DNA of 51,664 bases from PVC group bacterium (ex Bugula neritina AB1) (GTDB taxonomy: Bacteria > GCA-001730085): assembly GCA_001730085.1 (NCBI GenBank), contig MDLB01000102.1, positions 1 to 51,664 of the forward strand, written 5' to 3'. Positions 7,056 to 37,551 of this stretch are shown here, in pieces. The first letter of the stretch is position 1. Each line of letters begins with the position of its first letter. Under the pieces are notes generated by a model, which worked only from the letters and a program-made list of their open reading frames with translations, made no database searches and was not told the DNA's origin. Both the position numbers and the translations under genes were made by a program.

Positions 7056-9581
7056 TTGTCTAAATTAAAAAAAATATATCTAATTACACTTATACAGATA
7101 TTTTTAATAAATGCTATTTACATTCCCTCTCTAGTTTCTCTCTCCCCCCAAAAAGGAATCTCTTCCCAATCTGCCACCTCAGATAACAACACTTTTCAAC
7201 TTGTATCTACTGTATCTAAACTTAAAAGTAATCCTCCCGCTAAATCTGACTCTCTCAAGACCCTTGAATCTATTCCTGAGACAAAAAACAAGAGTAAAGC
7301 TCAAAAACTGTGGAATTTTCTTCGTAAAGAGATTCCTTACGCCGCCATCTTTATGACTATAATTGCTACATCTTGTTTTACTCTTTTAATATTTACCGTA
7401 ACACTAATGACCATTGCCCATTATCAAAAGGCATCTTTCAGCTGGATGCTTCCTACTATAGGAACTATTGCCTCAACCCTACTAGGCCTTCCTATGTCCA
7501 TCCTTTCTATTAAATATTTTCATCGCTTTTTAGGAAAAAAAGATAAAGACCTTCACAACTATCAAGACAAGACAATGACTCGATATAAAAATAATTATAT
7601 CTATTTATACCAAAGCATTGCTATAACAATTATATCTATAGTTATGATAGCTCTAACTTATTATTTCTTTATAAAGGAGCAAAGGCTAGAAAGCATTATA
7701 ATAACTCCTTTAACTGTCGCATTTACTGCTTCATCTATTATATTTATATCTTTCAAACTTCTAAGAAACAATGACATCGATAACCCACCTCCTGCCTTTA
7801 AGAAAGTCCTTGCAGCAATCATCAGCATCATATGCGCCATCCCCACAACAGTTGTAATAGTTCTTGCTGCTAACTTTTTTCGACATAACCTCCCCCTCCC
7901 TGGAGCACTAACGATTACTATGACCGTTATAACTATACTTGCAGTCCCCACACTCATATTTCTTGGATTAAAAAATATGAAGAAAAAAAACCTTATCAAT
8001 AGACTTTCTGATGATTCCCCTCTCATCCCTAACGAATATTCACCTAACTTAACGCGTCCCCTGAAGCCTAAAAAGAAACCTATTACTTTTATAATGGAAG
8101 GCTCGCCTGCCTCCGAAGCTGATGATGATGAAAGAGAAATCCCAAGACATACAGAAACTCTGACCTCTACGCTCTTTTATATACTTTGCATAATCGTCTC
8201 CCTAGCTTTAGAATTTACTATGATAGTTCTTACGGCTGTATTCTTTCCTAAAGTAAACATAGTATTGCATATCACCTTTATAGGAATATGCGTGGTACTT
8301 TGTGTGCCTATTTTCTTCTCACTCTTTCAATTATGCACGGTAAAGGAGAGCCCAAATGAAACGTTAGTCATCTATCGCAACTTCCAATCTGACAGCAGCG
8401 AGGTTGATGACGAAGAAGGAAGTGACAACACCGAGGTTGATGACGAAGAAGGAAGTGACAACACCGAGATTGATGACGAAGAAAGAAGTGACAACACCGA
8501 GGTTGTTAATAAAAAATACAAAAAAAATGATAAAAGATCCTTATTATATTTCGACTCTGATGAAAATAGTCGCAGCTGTTTATCATCGACAATTTCCGAT
8601 GAAGATAGTGACGTTGAACCCAGTTGGACAAATCTATACTCTATATATTCAAAAAAAATAGCCTTAACTGATAATTATAATTCTTCAACTATAGCTTCTT
8701 ACCAAGATCAATCAGCACAGGATGCTTTCCAAGAAGATTTCTCATCTACGGATTCAAATGAATCCCTTTCTCAAGCTTCCCTTTTGGCACCCAAACAAAG
8801 CCCTAATAAAAAAAAGGATAAAAAAAAGGATAAAAAAAAGGGTAAAAAAACCCAAAAAATCCTACCCCTCGAAGCCTTTCCATATGTAGTATTAAAAAAA
8901 GTAAATAAACATTCCACTACTGCCAAGACAGGTGGATCAAGTATTAAACATGGAGGAGGCTCCCAGCCTAAAAACGAAAAAAGTACAAAAATCAACAACC
9001 CTTTACAGGCGCTCGCTGTTCTTTATAAAAAAAAAGAATCAAAAAAAGAAAAAGAATCAAAAAAAGAAAAGTCAACTGGAGGAAAGTCTGAAGCCTCATC
9101 TGGAGGTTCTGGAGGCTCATCTGGAAGTTCTGGAGGAAATTCTGGAGGCTCATCTGGAGCTTCTGGAGGAAAGCCTGGAGGAAATTCTGGAGCGTCATCT
9201 GGAGGTTCTGGAGGAAATTCTGGAGGCTCATCTGGCGCTTCTGGAGGAAAGCCTGGCGGCTCATCTGGCGCTTCTGGAGGAAATTCTGGAGGCTCATCTG
9301 GCGCTTCTGGAGGAAATTCTGGAGGCTCATCTGGCGCTTCTGGAGGAAAGTCTGGAGGCTCATCTGGCGCTTCTGGAGGAAAGTCTGGAGGCTCATCTGG
9401 AGCTTCTGGAGGAAAGTCTGGAGGAAAGTCTGGAGCTTCTGGAGGAAAGTCTGGAGGCTCATCTGGAGCTTCTGGAGGAAAGTCTGGAGGAAAGTCTGGA
9501 GGCTCATCTGGCGCTTCTGGAGGAAAGTCTGGAGGAAAGTCTGGAAGTTCTGGCGGAACACCTAAAAAGAAAAAGAAATAA
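7056..9581 (+). CDS. Large polytopic membrane protein with acidic, Lys-rich and Gly/Ser/Ala-repeat tail; function unknown
   Basis: 841 residues from a TTG at 7056, supported by an AAAGGA SD (7042-7047). I recognise no family. An N-terminal leader or anchor (about 7-30) ends in LVSLSP. About eight hydrophobic spans follow between residues 90 and 430. The tail (about 445-841) is soluble and low-complexity: three 11-residue acidic repeats EVDDEEGSDNT, a Ser/Asp-rich stretch, blocks of Lys (KKDKKKDKKKGKK), and then about 160 residues of SGG/SGA triplets such as GGSSGASGGK, ending KKKKK. The last 480 bp is purine-rich tandem DNA, so other frames stay open too, but only this frame is continuous with the membrane domain. 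It stands alone, flanked by a repeat-bearing gap and a convergent gene 14 bp away. Surface adhesion or a scaffold role is speculation. Confidence 0.7.
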   Translation: MSKLKKIYLITLIQIFLINAIYIPSLVSLSPQKGISSQSATSDNNTFQLVSTVSKLKSNPPAKSDSLKTLESIPETKNKSKAQKLWNFLRKEIPYAAIFMTIIATSCFTLLIFTVTLMTIAHYQKASFSWMLPTIGTIASTLLGLPMSILSIKYFHRFLGKKDKDLHNYQDKTMTRYKNNYIYLYQSIAITIISIVMIALTYYFFIKEQRLESIIITPLTVAFTASSIIFISFKLLRNNDIDNPPPAFKKVLAAIISIICAIPTTVVIVLAANFFRHNLPLPGALTITMTVITILAVPTLIFLGLKNMKKKNLINRLSDDSPLIPNEYSPNLTRPLKPKKKPITFIMEGSPASEADDDEREIPRHTETLTSTLFYILCIIVSLALEFTMIVLTAVFFPKVNIVLHITFIGICVVLCVPIFFSLFQLCTVKESPNETLVIYRNFQSDSSEVDDEEGSDNTEVDDEEGSDNTEIDDEERSDNTEVVNKKYKKNDKRSLLYFDSDENSRSCLSSTISDEDSDVEPSWTNLYSIYSKKIALTDNYNSSTIASYQDQSAQDAFQEDFSSTDSNESLSQASLLAPKQSPNKKKDKKKDKKKGKKTQKILPLEAFPYVVLKKVNKHSTTAKTGGSSIKHGGGSQPKNEKSTKINNPLQALAVLYKKKESKKEKESKKEKSTGGKSEASSGGSGGSSGSSGGNSGGSSGASGGKPGGNSGASSGGSGGNSGGSSGASGGKPGGSSGASGGNSGGSSGASGGNSGGSSGASGGKSGGSSGASGGKSGGSSGASGGKSGGKSGASGGKSGGSSGASGGKSGGKSGGSSGASGGKSGGKSGSSGGTPKKKKK
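8400..8498 (+). repeat. Three 33-bp in-frame tandem repeats (acidic EVDDEEGSDNT units)
   Basis: Three consecutive 33-bp units (8400-8432, 8433-8465, 8466-8498) encode EVDDEEGSDNT, EVDDEEGSDNT and EIDDEERSDNT. Units 1 and 2 are identical. Unit 3 has a few substitutions, and a partial fourth begins with GAGGTT. The near identity suggests recent duplication, and the number may vary between strains. Confidence 0.85.
9078..9555 (+). repeat. Degenerate 9-bp-based tandem array encoding Gly/Ser/Ala triplets
   Basis: A run of TCTGGAGGN-type units, grouped into longer 27-33 bp blocks (for example TCATCTGGCGCTTCTGGAGG), encodes SGG, SSG and ASGG motifs. Several blocks are identical, so the array is likely to expand and contract by slippage or recombination, always in multiples of three. 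Its local composition is much richer in G than the surrounding DNA. Confidence 0.85.
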
Positions 9582-15240: not shown

Positions 15241-16881
15241 TTGAAAAAACTCATTGGGGAAACTCTTATATCTAAAGGAGTTTTGACAGAAGCTCAACTA
15301 AAGATCGCTTTATCCAAACAAACTGTCACAACTAAAAAAATTGGCCATATCTTAGTGGATATGGGAGTTATAACTCAAGTAGCTTTAGAAAAAGCTCTTT
15401 TAGAATCACAACAAGATTTATTAAATATCGAATTTGACCCCCAACTTCTCTCATTATTCCCAAAAAAATTTTTGCATCAATATACCGTCTTTCCTCTTAG
15501 AGAGTTAGAAAAAACCATTTTTTTAGCAACACCTGATACCGAAAGACTCGACTTAAAAGACACCCTGAACTTTATCACAAAAAATTCTGTGGAGCTTGTC
15601 CTTTGGCAAAAAGAAAACATTGAAAAAGCCTTGGATCATCATTTTATTTCCAACAAAAAAGATTCTCAACCAACAGTGTCTTTAGTCTCAGAAACACCGA
15701 CCTCTACAGAAGAAACCATATCTCCCATAGATCAACTCGTGAACCATATCCTTTCAGAAGCGATCAAAAATCGGGCAAGTGATATCCACTTAGAGCCTTT
15801 CCGGAAAAATATCCGACTACGCCATAGAGTAGATGGTATTTTGTATGAAATTTCATCTTTAGGAAAGGATATCTGGGACTCTCTCCTATCTCGAATCAAA
15901 CTGCTCGCCGATATGAATATATCCGAAAAACGCCTACCTCAAGATGGCCAATTTTCTTTCAAATCAGAAATCAAAGAAGTTGATCTAAGGGTCTCTTCTA
16001 TCCCAAGTATTTACGGAGAGGCGCTGGCTTTGCGAGTCTTAGATAAGCATCTGTCTTTTTTAAAACTAGACAATTTAGGCTTATCTGATAAACAAAGCGA
16101 AACTTGTCAAGATATTCTTAAGTTATCACATGGTCTGGTTCTAGTGACGGGGCAAACCGGGTCTGGAAAAACAACAACCCTTTACTCTTTGCTGAATACA
16201 GTGAACCACATGGATAAAAAAATCATCACACTAGAGGACCCTGTCGAATATCAAATCCCTAATATAAACCAAGTTAACGTGCAAAAAAATATAGGGTTAA
16301 CATTTGAAAAATCTCTTAGAGCCATTTTAAGACAAGCTCCAAATATCATTATGATTGGTGAAATCAGAGATAAAAAAACAGCTCAAATAGCTATCGAAGC
16401 CTCTTTAACCGGTCATCTTGTTTTAAGCTCTTTGCACACACAAGATGCTCCTGAGTCTATCGTAAGATTATTTGATATGGGAGCGCTTCCTTATCAGGTT
16501 GCATCTTCTCTACGAGCCGTAATATCACAACGATTAGTGAGACGTATTTGCTCTGAGTGCAAAGAAATCTATACCCCTCCTAAGACAACAAAACCTATCT
16601 TATTAAAAGGGAAGCCTATAACACTTTATAAAGGAGTGGGATGCGATAAATGTCTCAACACAGGGTACTATGGTCGGACAGCTCTTTTTCAAATAATGAT
16701 CCTCGATGAAAAAATAAAAGAACATATCTACAGTAAAACAAACTCGGACATGCTCCGTCAAATCCTTCAATATAAGGGGGTAAAAAGCTTGTGGGAGGAT
16801 GGTCTTTATAAAGCCAATTTGGGTTGGACTACACTATCAGAAGTCCAACGTATGACAACTCAAGAGGTGATGGAAAAATGA
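15241..16881 (+). CDS. GspE/PilB-type secretion or pilus assembly ATPase, paralogue 1
   Basis: 546 residues from a TTG start with GAGG five bases upstream. An N-terminal MshEN/T2SSE_N-type domain (about 1-135) precedes the ATPase. The ATPase shows ASDIHLEP (179-186), Walker A GQTGSGKT (304-311), the Asp box LEDPVEYQIP (331-340), Walker B IIMIGEIRD (369-377), the His box TGHLVLSSLHT (390-400) and a zinc-binding C4 site (C437, C440, C468, C471). These hexameric ATPases drive pseudopilus or type IV pilus extension at the inner membrane. The stop overlaps the next gene (ATGA), so the two paralogues are coupled. Whether it is type II secretion or type IV pilus cannot be settled without the pilin and secretin genes, which are not here. 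Confidence 0.93.
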   Translation: MKKLIGETLISKGVLTEAQLKIALSKQTVTTKKIGHILVDMGVITQVALEKALLESQQDLLNIEFDPQLLSLFPKKFLHQYTVFPLRELEKTIFLATPDTERLDLKDTLNFITKNSVELVLWQKENIEKALDHHFISNKKDSQPTVSLVSETPTSTEETISPIDQLVNHILSEAIKNRASDIHLEPFRKNIRLRHRVDGILYEISSLGKDIWDSLLSRIKLLADMNISEKRLPQDGQFSFKSEIKEVDLRVSSIPSIYGEALALRVLDKHLSFLKLDNLGLSDKQSETCQDILKLSHGLVLVTGQTGSGKTTTLYSLLNTVNHMDKKIITLEDPVEYQIPNINQVNVQKNIGLTFEKSLRAILRQAPNIIMIGEIRDKKTAQIAIEASLTGHLVLSSLHTQDAPESIVRLFDMGALPYQVASSLRAVISQRLVRRICSECKEIYTPPKTTKPILLKGKPITLYKGVGCDKCLNTGYYGRTALFQIMILDEKIKEHIYSKTNSDMLRQILQYKGVKSLWEDGLYKANLGWTTLSEVQRMTTQEVMEK

Positions 16882-18557
16882 CAAAAAGACCTTTACTTGG
16901 AAATATCCTTATATCCCGATGTATCATTACTCAAAAAGAGCTTAAAGAAGCCCTGCGAAAGCATTTAAGAGCATCTATCCCCTTAGGTCAAGCTCTCATA
17001 GATCTTAAATATGCAACAGAAAAAGATATTTGCGAAGCCCTTAGCTTTCAACATGACGTTCCCTCTGTTTCTTTGGGAAACACAGAAATCCTCAAAAGCC
17101 TTTTGGACTTGATGGATCACGACACTATCAAAAAATATAAAGCGATACCTCTTAAAGAGGAAAAACAATCTCTAACTTTGGTTATATGCGACATTATGAA
17201 CACGATGTATTCTGATGAACTAAGCTTTCTTCTAAACAAAAATATTGACTTTATGCTAACAACTCCTACCGAATGGTACAAGTGTCTCAAAAAACACTTT
17301 CCAAATGATACTGAAGAAGATATAAAAATAACCTCTTCACCAGATATATCTATGGAAAACTTAGAAAAAACCATTCAAACTGATACAGAAAACACACCTA
17401 TCATTGACCTCGTGGATCATATTTTACGGGAATCTATTAAAAATCTGGCTAGTGACATTCACTTAGAAGCTATGCCAGAAGGTCTTAAGGTTCGCTCTCG
17501 CCTAGATGGCTCACTCATCGAAACCTTAACTGTTCCTCCTGAGATAAGCTTAGCCATCACTTCTCGAATAAAAATCATGGCTAATATGGATATTTCCGAA
17601 ACAAGGTTGCCTCAGGATGGAAGAATCCTCTACCCAATAGACGATGTGTCCATAGACCTTCGGGTATCCGTTTTACCAACCATCCATGGAGAATGTATCG
17701 TCATCCGTGTTTTAGATAAAAGACACGTTGGCTTATCGCTCCACGACCTTGGGCTAAATGACTCACAAGAGGAAAAGATTTTAAAAAGCCTATCCTCCCA
17801 AGGTGGCTTGATCCTAACTACGGGTCCAACAGGTTCAGGAAAAACAACTTCTATCTATGCTTTATTAAAAACCCTAAATACTCCAGAGAAAAAAATCATG
17901 ACGATTGAAGACCCTATTGAATATGAAATCGATGGGGTTATTCAAAGTGCCACACACTCTAAAATCGACCTAACTTTCGCAAAATATCTCCGGCACCTTT
18001 TAAGGCAAGATCCTGACATTTTGATGATTGGTGAGATGAGAGATTTTGAAACCATTTCGGTGGCTATTCAATCCGCTTTAACAGGCCATTTGGTTTTAAG
18101 CACTTTGCATACAAATAATGCCATTGGCTCTATTGTTCGATTACTTGATATGAAAATAGAGCCTTTTCTCATATCCTCAACAATCAAAACCATTATCGCT
18201 CAACGACTTTTAAGAGTCCTCTGTCCTTATTGTAAAGAAGAGGCGTCCTCACCTTCTTCTATATTAGAAAAGTTGCCCTCTCAACGTTTGGATCTGAGTT
18301 TACGGAAAGTCTTCCTCCCTCAAGGTTGCGAATACTGTGATTTTTCAGGCTACCGTGGACGTACAGGGATTTTTGAAATTTTAACCATGACTCCTGCCCT
18401 AAACAGTCTGATTTTAGAAAAAGCCCCTGAAAAAGATTTACAAAAACAGGCTCAAAAAGATGGAATGACCCTCTTAAGAGAGGAAGGCTTAAAAAAGGTT
18501 TTTCATGGTGTAACAAGTTTATCAGAAGTGATCGAACAAACACAAGAAAGTGTGTGA
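16878..18557 (+). CDS. GspE/PilB-type secretion or pilus assembly ATPase, paralogue 2
   Basis: 559 residues from the ATG at 16878, which overlaps the previous stop and has AGGTGA seven bases upstream; the upstream in-frame ATG at 16824 is inside the preceding gene. Same architecture as paralogue 1: MshEN-type N-terminus (LGNILISRCIITQKELKEAL), ASDIHLEA, Walker A GPTGSGKT (316-323), IEDPIEYEI, Walker B LMIGEMRD, TGHLVLSTLHT and a C4 zinc site (CPYCKEE and CEYC). The sequences are clearly diverged, so it is an old duplication with both copies retaining catalytic motifs. Either both feed the same GspF/PilC protein downstream, or each powers a different filament. Confidence 0.92.
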   Translation: MTKRPLLGNILISRCIITQKELKEALRKHLRASIPLGQALIDLKYATEKDICEALSFQHDVPSVSLGNTEILKSLLDLMDHDTIKKYKAIPLKEEKQSLTLVICDIMNTMYSDELSFLLNKNIDFMLTTPTEWYKCLKKHFPNDTEEDIKITSSPDISMENLEKTIQTDTENTPIIDLVDHILRESIKNLASDIHLEAMPEGLKVRSRLDGSLIETLTVPPEISLAITSRIKIMANMDISETRLPQDGRILYPIDDVSIDLRVSVLPTIHGECIVIRVLDKRHVGLSLHDLGLNDSQEEKILKSLSSQGGLILTTGPTGSGKTTSIYALLKTLNTPEKKIMTIEDPIEYEIDGVIQSATHSKIDLTFAKYLRHLLRQDPDILMIGEMRDFETISVAIQSALTGHLVLSTLHTNNAIGSIVRLLDMKIEPFLISSTIKTIIAQRLLRVLCPYCKEEASSPSSILEKLPSQRLDLSLRKVFLPQGCEYCDFSGYRGRTGIFEILTMTPALNSLILEKAPEKDLQKQAQKDGMTLLREEGLKKVFHGVTSLSEVIEQTQESV

Positions 18558-18827
18558 GTTAGTCAAAGACCTCATATTGTAAAAAAACTCCCCAAAGGGT
18601 GTTTAAAATTGTCTAGGTAACTCTTCTATGCTATCATAAAGCTCATTTCGATTATAAAAGCTTCGATCAATTTCATCTCAGATTTTTGCAAAATATTGCC
18701 TCATACTTTTAATTAGAAGGACCTTGCGCGTAAGCTTTTTTTCGTTTGAAAAGAGCTTATTATCCCTTAGAGATCTGAGCTTTTATCATTAAATATTTTT
18801 TTCTTAAAAAAGATTAAGGTGTAATTG

Positions 18828-20072
18828 ATGCCAACATATTTTATCCAAACGATCGACAGTAATGGTCTTCAAAAAAATCACGATATTGTGGCAGATTCAG
18901 AAGCAGAAGCCCTCGAAACTATCAAGCAAGAAAAACTTTATATCCTTAAAATCGAAATGCGCTCACAAAAAGAGCCTGAAAAAGTCGGGGCTCTTTTTCG
19001 AAATATCAAAAAAAGCTCATTTTTTCATGTTCGATCTCCTTCTAATAAAGATATTTTCACCTTCACTTTTAAATTTGCAGCTCTCCTAGATGCCGGATTG
19101 CCGTTGTTGCGCTCATTGTCTATCCTTAAAAAACACAAGCAACTCCCCTCTATGAAAAAAATCCTTTCCGAAATAGAAAAAGATATCTCCTCCGGAGACC
19201 CTCTTTCTCTCTCAATGAGTCGCTACCCTTCCATATTCAAACCTCTATATGTCAGCATGATCCGTGCAGGTGAAGCTGGGGGTGTGCTACTCGTCGTCCT
19301 AGAAAGATTAGCTGAATTTTATGAAAGATCTTACCTTTTTCGTAAACGTGTCACCTATGCGATGTTTTACCCTTTTCTCATTTTTGCAACAACCATATTT
19401 ATATTTTTTATACTCCTTTTATTTGTGATCCCCAAATTCCAAGTGTTGTTTCAAGATTTAAAAGTATCACTGCCTTATGCCACAAAAGCTCTTTTAATGG
19501 TAAGCCAGTTCACACGTGAATATTTCTTTTGTATTTCTCTTTTCTCCTTTGTACTTATCTCCTTTGTGAGCTTTTCATTCCGCTTCAAAAGATATAAAGG
19601 GCTTTGGGAAAAAATCTCTATAAAATTACCTTTCTGGGGAAGCTTGATACAAAGTGTTGAAGTTGTTCAATTCTCACGTCTTCTCGGAACCCTTCTTCAA
19701 AGCGGAGTTCCTATTTTGCAAGCCTTCGAAATAGCCAAATCCGCAACCACTCATACCTTATTTAAGAAGGCCATTCAAAAAACGTATGATCAAGTGAAAG
19801 AAGGAAATACTATCTCTATCCCTCTAAAAGAAACCAAAGTCTTTCCAGAAGAAATGGTCGACATGGTTGAGGTTGGTGAAGAATCGGGTCAATTTGACAC
19901 AATGTTACTAAAAGTTGCCTTTCTTTACGAAGAAGAAGTGAAAAGAAAAATCGAAGCTATCACAAAAATGATCGAACCTTTGCTGATTTTTTTCCTCGCT
20001 CTTTTAGTAGGATTTATTGTTATATCTATGTTTTTGCCACTTGTATCAATGATGAACGCTCTTGGTAGATAA
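18828..20072 (+). CDS. GspF/PilC inner-membrane platform protein
   Basis: 414 residues from the ATG at 18828, with AAGGTG six bases upstream. A soluble N-terminus of about 60 residues is followed by two GspF repeats. The first spans about 75-200 (FTFKFAALLDAGLPLLRSL, then MIRAGEAGGVL). The second spans about 270-400 (FSRLLGTLLQSGVPILQAF, then MVEVGEESGQFD). Membrane spans lie at about 178-200, 225-245 and 380-405. GspF/PilC is the platform on which GspE/PilB hexamers act to assemble pilin or pseudopilin. A 270-bp gap separates it from the ATPases and contains a weak hairpin after the second ATPase (about 18584-18605, ACTCCC/GGGTGT). Confidence 0.92.
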   Translation: MPTYFIQTIDSNGLQKNHDIVADSEAEALETIKQEKLYILKIEMRSQKEPEKVGALFRNIKKSSFFHVRSPSNKDIFTFTFKFAALLDAGLPLLRSLSILKKHKQLPSMKKILSEIEKDISSGDPLSLSMSRYPSIFKPLYVSMIRAGEAGGVLLVVLERLAEFYERSYLFRKRVTYAMFYPFLIFATTIFIFFILLLFVIPKFQVLFQDLKVSLPYATKALLMVSQFTREYFFCISLFSFVLISFVSFSFRFKRYKGLWEKISIKLPFWGSLIQSVEVVQFSRLLGTLLQSGVPILQAFEIAKSATTHTLFKKAIQKTYDQVKEGNTISIPLKETKVFPEEMVDMVEVGEESGQFDTMLLKVAFLYEEEVKRKIEAITKMIEPLLIFFLALLVGFIVISMFLPLVSMMNALGR

Positions 20073-29953: not shown

Positions 29954-30507
29954 GATCTCATATTAGATAAAACTCTTTGAATAGCTATCGGGTATGCCCT
30001 ATGCTCTTCTTTTAAAACACGTTTCGCCAAGGTTTCTTCGGTATCTTCAATCCCAACCGGAATCCTAGCTTGCAGAATAATTTCTCCTGTATCAACACCT
30101 TCGTCAACATAGTGAATGGTGCATCCACTTTCCTTTTCTTTGGCATCAATAACTCTTTGATGGGTATTAAGTCCAGGAAACTTAGGCAATAAAGAGGGAT
30201 GAATATTGACGATTCTTCTAGAAAAAACATCCAAAATAGGCTTGCGAAGGATTTGCATAAATCCTGCCAAACAGACCAAGTCTATCTTTCTCTCCAATAA
30301 AGCCTCTGTCATTTGCTGTTGTTCTCTAAAGTGCAACACTTCTATATTCTTTTCTTTAGCTTTCTGTAAAGCTCTAGCATCTTTTTTATCACTGATAACA
30401 ACAACAACACTAGCATCTATACGAGACTCTTGACAAGCTTCAATAATAGCACTCATATTAGAGCCACGGCCTGAAACAAGAACCCCCAAACGAAAATCAC
30501 TCCCCAT
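29950..30507 (-). CDS. purN: Phosphoribosylglycinamide formyltransferase
   Basis: 185 residues from the ATG at 30507 (GGAGAG seven bases upstream); TTG codons further up are less likely. GART fold: LGVLVSGRGSNM at the N-terminus, the catalytic signature VNIHPSLLPKFPG with Asn/His, and HYVDEGVDTGEII containing the catalytic Asp. It uses 10-formyl-THF to formylate GAR, step 3 of purine synthesis. It overlaps purM by 11 bp and mfd by 4 bp. Confidence 0.96.
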   Translation of the reverse strand: MGSDFRLGVLVSGRGSNMSAIIEACQESRIDASVVVVISDKKDARALQKAKEKNIEVLHFREQQQMTEALLERKIDLVCLAGFMQILRKPILDVFSRRIVNIHPSLLPKFPGLNTHQRVIDAKEKESGCTIHYVDEGVDTGEIILQARIPVGIEDTEETLAKRVLKEEHRAYPIAIQRVLSNMRS

Positions 30508-31507
30508 CAACAATCTCTCCTAAATGACAAAAGGACTCTCCTAAAAAGTCCAATCTTTCTATTGTCCGATCGACCTCTGCCGGAGAAACAACAACGACCA
30601 TCCCTATACCACAGTTAAAGGTCATTTCCATTTCTTCTTCAGACAAAGCGCCTTTATCTTGCAAATAATCAAATATAGGCAACGAAGGAATATTCTCTTT
30701 ATTCAAAGAAAAGGTTAAACCTTTAGGCAAAACCCTTGGGATATTTTTCGATAACCCCCCTCCCGTTATATGAACAAGTCCTTTGATCGAGCAGTTATCC
30801 ATCAAGTCCAAAAGAGTCTTAACATAAACCCTCGTAGGTTTTAACAAAACGTCACCAACTCTCTCTTTTTCAAAAAGGAAGTCATCACCGGTCAGTCCCT
30901 GTTCTTCAAAAATGATTTTGCGAACCAAAGAATAACCATTACTATGAAGTCCAGAAGAAGGCAAGCCCAACAAAACATCACCTGCCTTTATATTTTTTCC
31001 TGTGAGCAAACGTGACTTTTCAACAACTCCAACAGCAAAACCTGCTAAATCGTAATCATCATTCCGATACATACCCGGCATCTCAGCTGTTTCTCCACCA
31101 ATCAAAGAACAACCAGAAAGCCGACACCCTTTCGCAACACCTTTAATAACCTCCAGCATCGCATCTTGATTCAGTTTACCAACCGCCATATAGTCTAAAA
31201 AAAATAAGGGCTCAGCTCCTTGAACAACAATATCATTCACACACATCGCAACAAGATCTATCCCTACCGAATGGTGATCATTCATCATTTGAGCAACTTT
31301 TAATTTTGTCCCAACACCATCGGCACCACTAACTAGAATAGGTTCCTTATATTTAGAAGTATCAAGCTTAAAAAGGCCGCCAAATCCGCCTAGCTCCCCC
31401 AAAACTTCATCTCTATAGGTTGAAGCAACCTCTTCTTTGATATTTTCAACAAAGGAGTTTCCAGCTTCAATATCTACTCCCGACTTTTTATAGGAATCTT
31501 TCTTCAT
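30497..31507 (-). CDS. purM: Phosphoribosylformylglycinamidine cyclo-ligase (AIR synthetase)
   Basis: 336 residues, usual length. Motifs: VSGADGVGTKLKVA (substrate and ATP site), DLVAMCVNDIVVQGAEPLFF, LIGGETAEMPGMY, LGLPSSGLHSNGYSLVR and ITGGGLSKNIPRVLP. It closes FGAM to AIR with ATP, directly after the PurL step. It begins the purM-purN-mfd unit; AAGGAA lies ahead of the ATG. Confidence 0.97.
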   Translation of the reverse strand: MKKDSYKKSGVDIEAGNSFVENIKEEVASTYRDEVLGELGGFGGLFKLDTSKYKEPILVSGADGVGTKLKVAQMMNDHHSVGIDLVAMCVNDIVVQGAEPLFFLDYMAVGKLNQDAMLEVIKGVAKGCRLSGCSLIGGETAEMPGMYRNDDYDLAGFAVGVVEKSRLLTGKNIKAGDVLLGLPSSGLHSNGYSLVRKIIFEEQGLTGDDFLFEKERVGDVLLKPTRVYVKTLLDLMDNCSIKGLVHITGGGLSKNIPRVLPKGLTFSLNKENIPSLPIFDYLQDKGALSEEEMEMTFNCGIGMVVVVSPAEVDRTIERLDFLGESFCHLGEIVDGE

Positions 31508-31657
31508 ATTTTAAAATTTCCTTGCATCTTAATTAAAATTTATAAGAATTAAAAATATTAAAAATAACTTAATACAAATTTAAATAAAAAAATTTAAAAA
31601 ATAGATCTTTGCGAATTAAAAATGCTTATAGTTAATTAATAACAATCTATCTATCCT

Positions 31658-31756: not shown

Positions 31757-34700
31757 CTATGCCGAATCACCCACTTTATCTCCTAAAAAACCAGACATGT
31801 TATTTTTAGAAGAAGGATTCACATTCAATGATAAAAAGTTTTTGTCCAAAGTTTCAAACTTTTCATAAATATCCTCATCTTCACCTTCAACCCCAGCAAG
31901 TTCTTTTTTCTCTTTAAATGAAGCTATATTTTTGATTTGCTTTATAAAGAAAGCACCTGGCGAATGCAAAAGACTCATGGCCAAAACAATAACAAAAAAG
32001 GTATTCAAGGCATGTAAAACAGCAGCATAAACCGTAGGCAAAATCTGTGTAAAAATAAGAGACAGCATAATAATATTCCAAACTATCGCCAACCAAAAAA
32101 TACTACTCAAAATAACAACATAGGCTTTTCTAAAAGATTTCAAAATGCTACTCAGCCCAAAAAATAAGTTTTCCTTATTGTCATTTGTACCAAAACATAT
32201 ATCCCCGCTCTCAAGAGATCTCGCCCCCCAAAAAGAAACCCCAACTTGTGCCAAAAGCATAGCCAAACGATCATTAGCACCATCTCCCACAAAATATACA
32301 ACATTTGAATCTAAGCAATCATCTTTCTGATCCCTTAAGTCTTTTGTAATCATTTTTTCCAAGACATTAAAGCCTTCTTTTTTTATAAGATCTTTCTCTA
32401 TTAAATAGTCTCGGAAATCAGAATAAGAAAGAACAAGAGGAAGATCTTCTTCTTGTTCTAAGGCTTTTTCTAAACCCTCTAACAGTTTCTTTTGTTTAAA
32501 CAGGGCCACAAAAACAGCTTTGTCTTGACTTGAAGCCTCTGCTAAAGCACATTTTACCCCAACACTATGAGCGACTTTTTTAACGACTTTTATTGTATCG
32601 CCAGAAGAAATCATGCAAAAAATCTTTTTCGGGATCGACTCAACACGAAAAAGCAACCTCGAAAAACCATTGATAAATGTCTCATACCAGCTTCGTCGAA
32701 CTTTGGCACACTTTTCAACAAATGCTACTGCCCCATCTCGGATATTATTTTTTATCCTAATCAAACCTAAGAACTTTCCTTTTGAAACATCATACATAAC
32801 GATGCATGTCATGTCTTCATTGTCTTTATTTTCAATAGCTCCCTCTACTTCTGCAAAAGTTGCTTTTATCTTTAGATCTGCTGCATAGTATTTTTTAAAG
32901 GATTTAAAGTCTCCCACGTACAGTTTTTCCTCATTTAAAGGGCTCTGTGCTTCTATCTCTAAAGGGCTCTGTGCTTCTATCTCGAAAGATTTAGGCAAAT
33001 AGCGCATTAGCAACCCTTTATTGTCTGGATCTCTTTCAATGTGAAAACCTAAGTTAGCTTTATTTAAAGTATAGTTGGTAAGCATTGTTTGATCTTCTAC
33101 ACTCAATGTCTCTAAAATCTTTGTATAAATAGCCTGAGCATAAGAGTTATTTTCCTTTAAAAAACTTTCTGCCAAAGCCACCAAAAACAAAGTTTCTTTT
33201 TGCTGTTTTTCTAACACAGAACCCTCAAAAATCCACGGCCTTTCGGAATCAACTTCAAACCCTAAGGTTAAAGTATTACTTTTATCTAGAAAAACCACTC
33301 TAGGATAAACAAAGGCTGAGTCATTCTGAACAGTCACATTTTTTTGTGTTGCCAAACTATGTCGAAGAGCGCTAAATGTCAAAGGAATACCAATAAGAAA
33401 TGAACAAGGGCATAAGCTAACAAAAACAGCTAAAGCATTTTGCAAAGCAGCATTCAAGCTTTTATCATAGACATAGGTTGCTACTATTCCAGCAATGATA
33501 GCCAAGGTCAAAACCACTAAAATAAAGTACTGCCCAAGTCTTTCTGCAAAAAGACTTGTCCTGGACATATTATGAGAATTAAACCTTTTAAGAGAGTCTT
33601 GCAGTGTACCAATTTTCGTATCATCTCCCACTTTGTCTAATTTTAAAAGCACTCCTTTTAACTTATTAATATCATCATTTTTTAAATCGAGAGAATCTTT
33701 AGAGAGGTCTTCCTCTACAGCTTTTAAAAAAGTTCCTCCCCACAAAATATTATCGATTTTTTTATTTTTACTTCTTTCCTCTCCATTAAGTTCAAGTTCC
33801 TTAACATAGCAGAAGTGAGCATTCTTATCGCCTACAAAGCCAACAAGGACTCCATCAACACGAGGAATCCATGTCCCATATGGAACAAAGGCAACAACGT
33901 CTCTACCATCTTTAAGCCATTTCTCAACAACCGCTTCTTCAGTTTTGCAAAAAGAAGAGAGCTCTATTTCATCAACCGAGTGAATCAGAACTTGATTAGG
34001 TATTTTATTCTTTTTAACATTATCAAGAGCTTTCTCCTGCTCTTTAACTGCTCCCATCTTAATCGCTGCAGCCAATCTTATAGATATAGCGATAAGTGCA
34101 ACAATAATCATGCTAACATCTTCAAATTTAGTCAACACTAGCACTGTAAAAATAATCAAGGATATCCCTTGAACAAAAGTCATCCCCAGAGCCCTTAAAG
34201 GGTTATGTTTTTCACGGACCCTGTCAAAAAATTTAAAGATAGATTTCCATGCCTCATAGATAGGACGTATCGCATAAACAACAGCACCCACCCAACCCAA
34301 AACATTAAAGACCGTTCGAACTTCTAAAGGAATATAGAAATGCATGCCATGAAAAACATCTGTCAATATCTCCATAGCAAAAAAAAGAAAAACTAACAAC
34401 CACAAAAAACCAGTATTTTCGTAAAAATATCTAATTATATTTTTTAAAAAAGACATTTTAAATCTTTTAAGGGTTTTTTCTATAAATTTTTTAACTTTAA
34501 CTATTATAGGTATAACAAAAGGAACCATTAAAAATAAAAAGAAAGGAGAAACCTGAGTCAAGCCAAAAGCTAATCCTAAAATAGCCGTAACCCCAACAAA
34601 AAAGATCCAATGAATCTCGTAATACTTTTTCAAAAAAAACTGTTGTGAGCTGTTATGACAACACGCATCTTTTTTATGAGGCAAAACATTTTTCACATCT

Positions 34701-34999
34701 GAGTTCCTTTCAGTTGTTTTATAAGAACATTCTTTATGTGAATCATGATGAGAATGATTGCACCCCTTATGTTCATCAGGCGCATTACATTCTTTATGTG
34801 GGTCGCCATTCACATCAGCAGCCTCATGGTCTTGCTGAGTAGGACTACAATCAGTTTTATTAATCAATATCTTCGGAGACAAATTGCTCTTAACTTTAAC
34901 AAGATTGGAAGCAGGGCTCAAAGCGAAAGAAACAGAGTCAAACAAAAAAAAGTTTAATAAAAGAATCGTTATAATAAACTTTGGGTTTATTTTTCTCAC
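31757..34999 (-). CDS. Divergent P1B-like (heavy-metal) P-type ATPase with secretory leader and DxHKxC repeats
   Basis: 1080 residues from a GTG with AAGGA six bases upstream. A leader (7-26, ending SFALSP) is followed by a Cys/His-rich segment with three DxHKxC units (66-71, 75-80, 86-91) and HKKDACCH. Hydrophobic spans before the actuator domain lie at about 130-168, 196-212, 226-245, 274-291 and 294-311. The core is P1B-like, with CPC (530-532) and GDGAND (905-910), but hallmark motifs are changed: TGES is NGEE (405-408), DKTGT is DKSNT (572-576), the P1B HP dipeptide position reads SY (619-620) and TGD is SGD (799-801). The phosphorylated Asp and catalytic Glu remain, so it could still be active or be a regulatory pseudo-pump. 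Likely metals are Zn or Cd, by inference only. It splits the purine gene cluster. Confidence 0.75.
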   Translation of the reverse strand: MRKINPKFIITILLLNFFLFDSVSFALSPASNLVKVKSNLSPKILINKTDCSPTQQDHEAADVNGDPHKECNAPDEHKGCNHSHHDSHKECSYKTTERNSDVKNVLPHKKDACCHNSSQQFFLKKYYEIHWIFFVGVTAILGLAFGLTQVSPFFLFLMVPFVIPIIVKVKKFIEKTLKRFKMSFLKNIIRYFYENTGFLWLLVFLFFAMEILTDVFHGMHFYIPLEVRTVFNVLGWVGAVVYAIRPIYEAWKSIFKFFDRVREKHNPLRALGMTFVQGISLIIFTVLVLTKFEDVSMIIVALIAISIRLAAAIKMGAVKEQEKALDNVKKNKIPNQVLIHSVDEIELSSFCKTEEAVVEKWLKDGRDVVAFVPYGTWIPRVDGVLVGFVGDKNAHFCYVKELELNGEERSKNKKIDNILWGGTFLKAVEEDLSKDSLDLKNDDINKLKGVLLKLDKVGDDTKIGTLQDSLKRFNSHNMSRTSLFAERLGQYFILVVLTLAIIAGIVATYVYDKSLNAALQNALAVFVSLCPCSFLIGIPLTFSALRHSLATQKNVTVQNDSAFVYPRVVFLDKSNTLTLGFEVDSERPWIFEGSVLEKQQKETLFLVALAESFLKENNSYAQAIYTKILETLSVEDQTMLTNYTLNKANLGFHIERDPDNKGLLMRYLPKSFEIEAQSPLEIEAQSPLNEEKLYVGDFKSFKKYYAADLKIKATFAEVEGAIENKDNEDMTCIVMYDVSKGKFLGLIRIKNNIRDGAVAFVEKCAKVRRSWYETFINGFSRLLFRVESIPKKIFCMISSGDTIKVVKKVAHSVGVKCALAEASSQDKAVFVALFKQKKLLEGLEKALEQEEDLPLVLSYSDFRDYLIEKDLIKKEGFNVLEKMITKDLRDQKDDCLDSNVVYFVGDGANDRLAMLLAQVGVSFWGARSLESGDICFGTNDNKENLFFGLSSILKSFRKAYVVILSSIFWLAIVWNIIMLSLIFTQILPTVYAAVLHALNTFFVIVLAMSLLHSPGAFFIKQIKNIASFKEKKELAGVEGEDEDIYEKFETLDKNFLSLNVNPSSKNNMSGFLGDKVGDSA
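32937..32984 (-). repeat. 24-bp in-frame tandem duplication in the ATPase nucleotide-binding domain
   Basis: Two adjacent 24-bp units (32937-32960, 32961-32984) differ at one base and encode IEAQSPLE-IEAQSPLN in the nucleotide-binding (N) domain region. The near identity means the duplication is recent. Confidence 0.85.
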
Positions 35000-35295
35000 A
35001 AAAAGTCCTTTCTTTAGGAATAAATTTATTAATACCTTGAGATATTTTTCAAAGTTTCAACCAAAAATGTGCGCTACTTTACAACAAGCTCACATACCTT
35101 TTAGTTCGGGAAATATCTCAAAAAAGATTGCAGAAAACAAGATTGATAGATCGTTTTATCAAGACCTTCCTGTTTTCTATTTTAATATAAAAAAAAAACA
35201 TCATCCACAAAAAATATAAAACGTCTCTTAAAGAGGTATAAAATATTCCAAAAGTTCTTTCTAAATTAAAAGTCTTTATAGTCCAATCTCAAAAA

Positions 35296-37551
35296 TTAAG
35301 AACGATTCATTGTTCTCTCTAAACTATCAGACCAAAAATGTTCAAGTTCTTTCACAGAAAGATCCAGGACATCCTCTATTACAAGTCTCTCACCTTCAAC
35401 ATTTCCCAAAACGGTGACAGGCGTATCGTTTTTTAAGCATATATCCTGAATATCAGCAAGACTCGAAGGATCACAAGAAACAACAACTCTACTTTGAGTC
35501 TCTCCAAATAAAATAATATTAAGAGGTATCTCTTCCTCATTCGGTAAAACTATCTTTGCACCTAAAGAAGCCGACTCAGCAGACATACATGACTCAGCTA
35601 AAGTCACAGCAAGACCACCTTCTGAGCAATCATGTGCTGAATTTAAAAGACCTTTTTCTGAAGACAAAAGAACGGCTTCATGCAATTTCTTTTCCACAGC
35701 AAGATCTAAGGTGGGACATAGAGAAAGCTTCTCTCCCAAAATATTTTCGCTAAACTCACTCGAGCCTATTTCGTTTTTATTCTCACCTAATAAAAGAATA
35801 AGATCCCCCTCGTTTTGAAAAAACTGTGAATTAATACGCTTTGCAACTTCAGATTCTTGAACATTGTCTATCAATCCAACAACTCCAACTATAGGCGTTG
35901 GAAAAATGGGACCATCAACATTCTGATTATATAAGCTAACATTTCCCCCAATAATTGGAATATCAAGGTCAGAACAAGCTTTCGCAAGCCCTTTAACACA
36001 ATGATGAAAAACCCAAAAGTTCTCTTCATGCATAGGGTTCCCGAAGTTCAAACAATCTGTCCCGGCAATAGGCCTCGCACCTGCACAAACAACATTTCTC
36101 GCAGCTTCTGCAACAGCTATTTTGCCTCCCTCATAAGGGTCAGCATGACAATAGCGGCCTTGCCCATCGAGTTTCATTGCTAAAAACTTATTAGTATTCT
36201 TAATTCTTATAACAGCAGCATCCGATCCTGGACGAACAACCGTATTCGTTTGAACCATATGATCATACTGCTCATAAATCATTTTTTTACTTGCGATGTT
36301 GGGCGTAGCTAAAAGTTTTTTTAAGGTCTCTCCATAGTCAACCATCGCATTCACTTTTTCGCGATCAATTAAAGGGATTTTACTCAAGTATTCAGGCTTT
36401 CTTTCTTCACGCGTATAAACAGGAGCATCATCTGACAAAGCTTGAACAGGAACATCTGCGACAAGATTTTTGTTTTCAAAAATCCTCATCCTATCTCCCG
36501 ATTCGACCTGTCCAATATTTTTAACATGTAGGTCCCATTTCTGAAATATTTCAGAGACTCTATCAACATACTTTTTCTCAACTATAAGGAGCATTCTTTC
36601 CTGAGATTCTGAAAGCATTATTTCATAAGGAGTCATCCCTTTTTCTCTTTGAGGAACCTTAGAAACATCTATTGAAATACCCATCTTGCCACGCGCAGCA
36701 GTTTCACAAACCGCACATGTCAATCCAGCAGCTCCCATATCTTGAATCCCAACAACAAGATCTTCCTGAATCACTTCCAAACACGCCTCAAGCAAAAGTT
36801 TTTCCATAAAAGGATCCCCAACTTGAACCGCAGAGCGTTCCTCTTGAGAGTCTTCTGTTAAGTCATCCGAAGCAAATGTGGCGCCATGAATCCCATCTCT
36901 ACCCGTTGAAGCACCTACATATAAAACCTGATTACCGGCACCAGAAGCAGCCCCTCTGGCTATTTTGTCTGTCTTTAAAAGGCCTAGGCAAAAAACATTA
37001 ACCAAGGGGTTTGTTTGATACGAATCATCAAACATAACTTCTCCACCAACGGTAGGAACGCCGACACAGTTACCATAACCAGCAATCCCTTCGACAACCC
37101 CCTTTAATAAAAAACGAACATGCTTATCTTCTAAGGAGCCAAACCTAAGAGAGTTCATACACGCGATGGGACGTGCACCCATTGTGAATATATCTCTAAT
37201 AATCCCTCCAACACCTGTCGCGGCACCTTGATAAGGTTCTAATGCCGATGGATGATTATGGGACTCGACTTTAAATGCAACAGCCCAATCGTCTCCGATA
37301 TCAACAATCCCTGCATTTTCTTCTCCGGCAGGGACTAAAATTTTTTCATGTTTCGTGGGAAAAAGTTTTAAAAGGTTCTTAGAGTTTTTATAGCTACAAT
37401 GCTCAGACCACATAACGGAAAACAACCCTAACTCCAAAAGGTTAGGATCCCTATGCATTTTTTCAACAATCAAAGAATACTCTTGCTTGCTCAAACCATG
37501 TTGTTCAATAATATCCGCTGACATAGGCGCAAACTCTTTAGATTCAGACAT
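35296..37551 (-). CDS. purL: Phosphoribosylformylglycinamidine synthase, small-type large subunit
   Basis: 751 residues, matching the PurL of the PurLQS system rather than the 1,300-residue fused enzyme. Motifs: [16 protein letters not shown] near the N-terminus, [30 protein letters not shown] split over about 90-120, [22 protein letters not shown] and DCSEGGLAV. It converts FGAR to FGAM using ammonia from PurQ. It lies 77 bp downstream of purQ. The third subunit, PurS, is not seen in the window. Confidence 0.97.

Follow-up and report, generated by a model that had tools for sequence, protein, structure and literature searches.

How far can a pump of the P1B type depart from its hallmark motifs and still be a working protein? 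This question is raised by an ATPase gene in a 51,664-nucleotide stretch of contig MDLB01000102.1 from a PVC group bacterium (hereafter the window, meaning that whole stretch). An initial annotation of this DNA had described an intact frame of 1080 codons with altered motifs in the catalytic loops and key residues spared, and had proposed a functional shift rather than decay. The intact frame is confirmed: 31757-34999 on the minus strand is open from a GTG start without a stop, encodes 1080 amino acids and has a normal codon-position G+C (0.44/0.31/0.29). Features of the gene and its product, in 5' to 3' order, are as follows:

31757-34999, minus strand: P1B-like P-type ATPase gene (open frame, Pfam, TIGR01525, AF2 model)
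35006-35010, minus strand: Shine-Dalgarno-like AAGGA 5' of the GTG (read from the sequence)
34919-34984, minus strand: signal-like hydrophobic helix (aa 6-27; hydropathy), followed by FALSPAS; the paralogue has the same layout, with GLAPSS
34655-34849, minus strand: Cys/His-rich stretch (aa 51-115), putatively metal-binding, without counterpart in the paralogue
33776-33787, minus strand: A-domain loop NGEE (aa 405-408; context LNGEER), canonically TGES (alignment)
33404-33412, minus strand: canonical CPC in M4 (aa 530-532), CAC in the paralogue (alignment)
33272-33286, minus strand: P-domain phosphorylation motif DKSNT (aa 572-576), canonically DKTGT (alignment)
33143-33148, minus strand: N-domain N618-S619 at the P1B His-Pro site, Ala-Pro in the paralogue (L-INS-i alignment)
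32957-32965, minus strand: N-domain P-L-E (aa 679-681; P679, E681) at the Gly-x-Gly site (alignment)
32936-32988, minus strand: in-frame 24-bp tandem duplication inside the N domain (2.2 copies, 96%), giving EIEAQSPL twice
32624-32689, minus strand: first P-domain insertion (~aa 771-792, ~25 aa), common to the paralogue (spacing)
32594-32605, minus strand: hinge SGDT (aa 799-802), an ordinary variant (alignment)
32315-32497, minus strand: second P-domain insertion (~aa 835-895, ~60 aa), common to the paralogue (spacing)
32270-32287, minus strand: canonical GDGAND (aa 905-910; alignment)
32000-32014, minus strand: HALNT in the last core membrane helix (aa 996-1000), common to the paralogue (alignment)

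The neighbourhood is that of an ordinary chromosome, with rnc, mfd, purN, purM, the ATPase gene, purL, purQ, rplT, infC and thrS on one strand throughout (purQ and rplT were named from their own sequences). The ATPase gene is flanked by purM (30497-31507) and purL (35296-37551). No metal-related genes adjoin it – an absence that counts against reading the product as a metal transporter. The gap downstream of the gene contains an AT-rich imperfect tandem repeat with a period of ~40 (31528-31600). In the unrelated genome G016 (L102:1549-7826), the place between purL and purM that the ATPase gene has here is taken by a 494-aa glutamine amidotransferase/phosphoribosyltransferase gene; it is probably purF, in the order purQ-purL-purF-purM-purN. 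Elsewhere in the window, 15241-20072 (plus strand) carries two adjoining T2SSE-family ATPase genes and then a T2SSF gene, which are parts of a type II secretion system or type IV pilus.

The protein scores above the cut-off of Pfam E1-E2_ATPase (PF00122; 49.5 bits, cut-off 28.1) and below those of the NCBIfam profiles for P1B (TIGR01525; 98.7 bits, cut-off 346) and P-type ATPases (TIGR01494; 54.9 bits, cut-off 62.3). Its sequence matches in the PDB are CopA-type pumps (E about 1e-11). An AF2 model (pTM 0.66; core pLDDT mostly 70-90, the N-terminal 225 residues poor) has ATP7B as its best PDB match (E = 4.6e-24), and CopA, ZntA and other P1B structures also match. The predicted fold is thus P-type, with support from AF2 that is partly dependent on, and so not fully independent of, the 26-sequence input alignment, which was made of P1B pumps. 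The order of membrane, A, P and N domains is likewise that of P1B heavy-metal ATPases (TIGR01525; CopA, ZntA, ATP7B).

To place the altered motifs, we compared the protein with 77 P1B ATPases drawn from all fetched loci, excluding the genome's own two, in an L-INS-i alignment. This set was initially filtered by the pattern D[KR][ST]x[TS]; an HMM-based repeat without the motif filter gave the same answer, with DKTGT in every other P-type frame covering the site. DKTGT is present in 77/77 references and DKSNT in none, which makes this one of the claimed changes that are exceptional; the D, the K and the last T are retained. The A-domain loop presents a more qualified case. Its first position is T in 70/77, S in 5/77 and N in 2/77 references and its G-E core is invariant, whereas the last of the four residues may be S (57), A (9), P (8), F (2) or H (1; n = 77). 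Two references carry NGES, and only the window protein carries the complete NGEE. The hinge, which had been counted among the altered motifs, is ordinary: about half of the references (~35/77) also have SGD.

The P1B nucleotide site is changed as well. The initial annotation had rightly reported the loss of His-Pro, which is His in 77/77 and Pro in 75/77 references, but its placement was one residue off, the residues there being N618-S619 rather than SY. Beyond what had been described, the Gly-x-Gly of the ATP pocket – Gly in 76/77 references at both positions, and kept as Gly-Gly by the paralogue – is also lost. A paper on ATP7B counts H1069, G1099 and G1101 as indispensable to the binding of ATP (PMC7418023), and all three are replaced in the window protein. 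These replacements, together with a DKSNT found in no other sampled pump, count against a working transporter.

The remaining catalytic apparatus is retained, as had been claimed for CPC, the phosphorylatable Asp, the dephosphorylating Glu and GDGxND. In the P domain, D572, K573, T576, T578, G800-D801, K827, G905-D906-G907 and N909-D910 are all kept, so that GDGAND and the GD of the hinge are both in place; the A domain keeps G406-E407, and the CPx motif of P1B pumps is present in M4. The statement that the changes spare the key residues is thus only half right: the catalytic Asp, Lys and Glu and the Mg-site residues are there, but the protein lacks the His and the Gly-x-Gly that bind ATP. Across columns conserved at >=88%, the window protein keeps 26/43 positions and the paralogue 31/43, against a reference median of 42 and minimum of 34, and the figure of 26/43 also counts against a working transporter. 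Because DKTGT and His-Pro/Gly-x-Gly, two tested defining features, are both absent, the protein is P1B-like and not a P1B member, although any activity it has would be of the P1B kind.

Further departures from P1B pumps lie outside these motifs, and neither they nor the paralogue figured in the earlier description. Two insertions in the P domain occur in 0/77 references: from D751 to G800 the spacing is 50 aa in the window protein, 51 in the paralogue and 24-27 in the references, and from K827 to G905 of GDG it is 79, 80 and 15-23 aa, respectively. The second insertion is modelled by AF2 mostly at pLDDT 76-88, falling to ~60 at its 3' end. The C-terminus is longer than in P1B pumps. In the last core helix, HALNT replaces the MxxSS, DVGxx, HNxSS or HEGST of the references. 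P1B-4 ATPases (CoaT/CtpD type) are defined by SPC in M4 and HEGGT(X)5N in the last helix (PMC10800456). The likeness of HALNT to HEGGT extends to the initial His, but the window protein has CPC rather than SPC, ALNT rather than EGGT and no Asn at the next conserved position (HALNTFFVIVL), and we rejected assignment to P1B-4 on both motifs.

The N-terminus is also unlike the P1B layout of eight helices and a cytosolic N-terminus. A signal-like helix and two extra hydrophobic segments precede MA, in a region where model confidence is low. Counted to the A domain, the signal-like helix is followed by six more hydrophobic segments, an odd total that would place the A domain outside; one of the segments thus probably does not cross the membrane. 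Between aa 41 and 125 the window protein has 6 Cys and 9 His. An 841-aa multi-helix protein encoded at 7056-9581 (plus strand) has a signal-like N-terminus that ends in SLSP and, at its C-terminus, a long tail of Gly-Ser-rich repeats; its N-terminus and those of the two ATPases (FALSPAS, GLAPSS) may have a lineage-specific signal in common.

The genome (1.9 Mb, 108 contigs, 97.6% complete) encodes exactly two detectable P-type ATPases. The second, a 1076-aa paralogue on a different contig (G000:C94; L033:10120-13350), is 24% identical to the window protein over 889 aligned positions. It shares both P-domain insertions, HALNT, WN, SGDT, an N domain without the His and the signal-like N-terminus. 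In contrast to the window protein, it keeps TGES, DKTGT and Gly-Gly, has CAC for CPC and Ala-Pro for His-Pro, lacks the Cys/His-rich stretch, has a longer C-terminus and passes the TIGR01494 cut-off. The two form a clade with 99% SH-aLRT support (stem 1.93; tips 2.61 for the window protein and 2.28 for the paralogue). With both sequences on very long branches, the tree cannot assign them to a P1B subtype; the pair is a long-branch, lineage-restricted and strongly derived P1B offshoot. Since the paralogue has canonical TGES and DKTGT, NGEE and DKSNT are most simply explained as changes in one copy that followed the duplication.

The paralogue keeps 31 hallmark positions; the window protein has 22 of these (71%) and has lost nine, whereas identity between the two outside the hallmarks is 22% (Fisher p = 2.6e-8). 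Retention so far above background argues against drift since the duplication. The proposal of a functional shift rather than decay is upheld to that extent, by hallmark retention, similar tip lengths and oddities common to the paralogue; the shift itself is only plausible, the sole relative being canonical at TGES/DKTGT and no orthologue having been found.

Searches for that orthologue covered several datasets. One of two scans of GTDB r220 contigs returned no relative and the other only canonical P1B pumps, many from Bacteriovoracaceae; a viral scan of IMG/VR returned no relatives. A profile search of 386 genomes yielded no orthologue, its best foreign match being a canonical pump (E = 1.5e-14). 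No match at E <= 1e-18 came from the phyla of G206, G016, G284 and G357, which were picked for an Mfd that ranks with the most similar ones, and G001, the one other genome sampled from the same phylum as this bacterium, has no P-type ATPase detectable by TIGR01494. A non-exhaustive search of the open-access literature found no description of a DKSNT or NGEE P-type subfamily. Within the sample searched, NGEE/DKSNT is a singleton, an isolated oddity. The departures are exceptional in this sample but come from a single sequence, and because the claim rests on one genome from a barely sampled phylum, we regard it as a lead and not a discovery.

We tentatively favor, at somewhat under an even chance, an intact transporter of transition metals, embedded in the membrane and one of the two members of the derived P1B offshoot, with altered and perhaps slow catalysis. 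Consistent with this reading are the hallmark retention, a branch length like the paralogue's, the 99% clade, the common insertions, the match to P1B structures, the kept P-domain residues, CPC, the Cys/His-rich stretch and the presence of only two P-type ATPases in the genome. The main competing explanation, possible though clearly less probable, is a pseudo-pump with weak or no catalysis that persists in another role, as a buffer or sensor of metal or as the paralogue's regulatory partner. It would account for the loss of the ATP-site His and Gly-x-Gly, for DKSNT and NGEE, for a Cys/His-rich N-terminus in the window copy alone, and for complementary losses – CPC with altered ATP chemistry in one protein versus TGES/DKTGT with CAC in the other. 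A dead enzyme, however, could dispense with the phosphorylatable Asp, the Mg-site Asps, Lys827 and Glu407, all of which are kept, and the location of the two genes on separate contigs speaks against partnership with the paralogue.

Recent decay, in which function was lately lost from a still intact frame and the altered motifs and 24-bp duplication represent early damage, is unlikely. The nine lost hallmark positions, the losses private to the ATP site of this copy and the near-perfect repeat inside the N domain fit such a history; the duplication may stem from recent slippage or from the assembly. A frame open over 1080 codons, a normal base composition by codon position, a ribosome-binding-like site and hallmark retention far above background do not fit it. 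We give very little weight to a split-function P-type system in which the paralogue (TGES, DKTGT, CAC) would supply catalysis and the window protein (CPC, Cys/His-rich) the route for the metal or a regulatory function, perhaps in a heteromer joined via the common P-domain insertions. Just as improbable is a P1B heavy-metal pump of the usual kind whose substitutions are tolerated: SGD is common, NGES is present elsewhere and Asn is common at the matching position of the D-x-x-x-T loop in other HAD-fold phosphatases, but the invariance of DKTGT and His in the references, insertions without precedent and scores that fall well short of the curated P1B cut-off and also miss the P-type one all oppose it.

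If the protein is a transporter, as we favor, the Cys/His-rich N-terminal stretch might gather metal, which would then be bound in the membrane by CPC in M4 and probably by W974-N975 and H996-N999 in the last two helices. CPC with His996 and Asn999 could form a metal site resembling, not matching, that of P1B-4. Asp572 would be phosphorylated and Glu407 of NGEE would drive dephosphorylation, as in the ordinary cycle; both steps could run because Asp572, Lys573, Thr576, Asp801, Lys827, Asp906, Asn909, Asp910 and Glu407 are present. With neither the adenine-site His nor the Gly-x-Gly of P1B pumps, the protein would have to hold ATP in a reshaped N domain, and turnover would therefore probably be slower or differently regulated. 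Candidate substrates are Zn, Co, Ni or Cu. The analysis itself shows the intact frame, the predicted fold, the kept phosphorylation and Mg-site residues, the insertions common to both proteins and a retention that resembles selection, whereas substrate, direction, catalysis and expression are inferred.

Both DKTGT and the His-Pro of P1B pumps are regarded as signatures that are nearly absolute. A gene that is intact, lacks both and still keeps the chemistry of phosphorylation would test which parts of the signatures are needed, and the pair suggests that P1B-type ATPases can accept sizeable insertions in the P domain.
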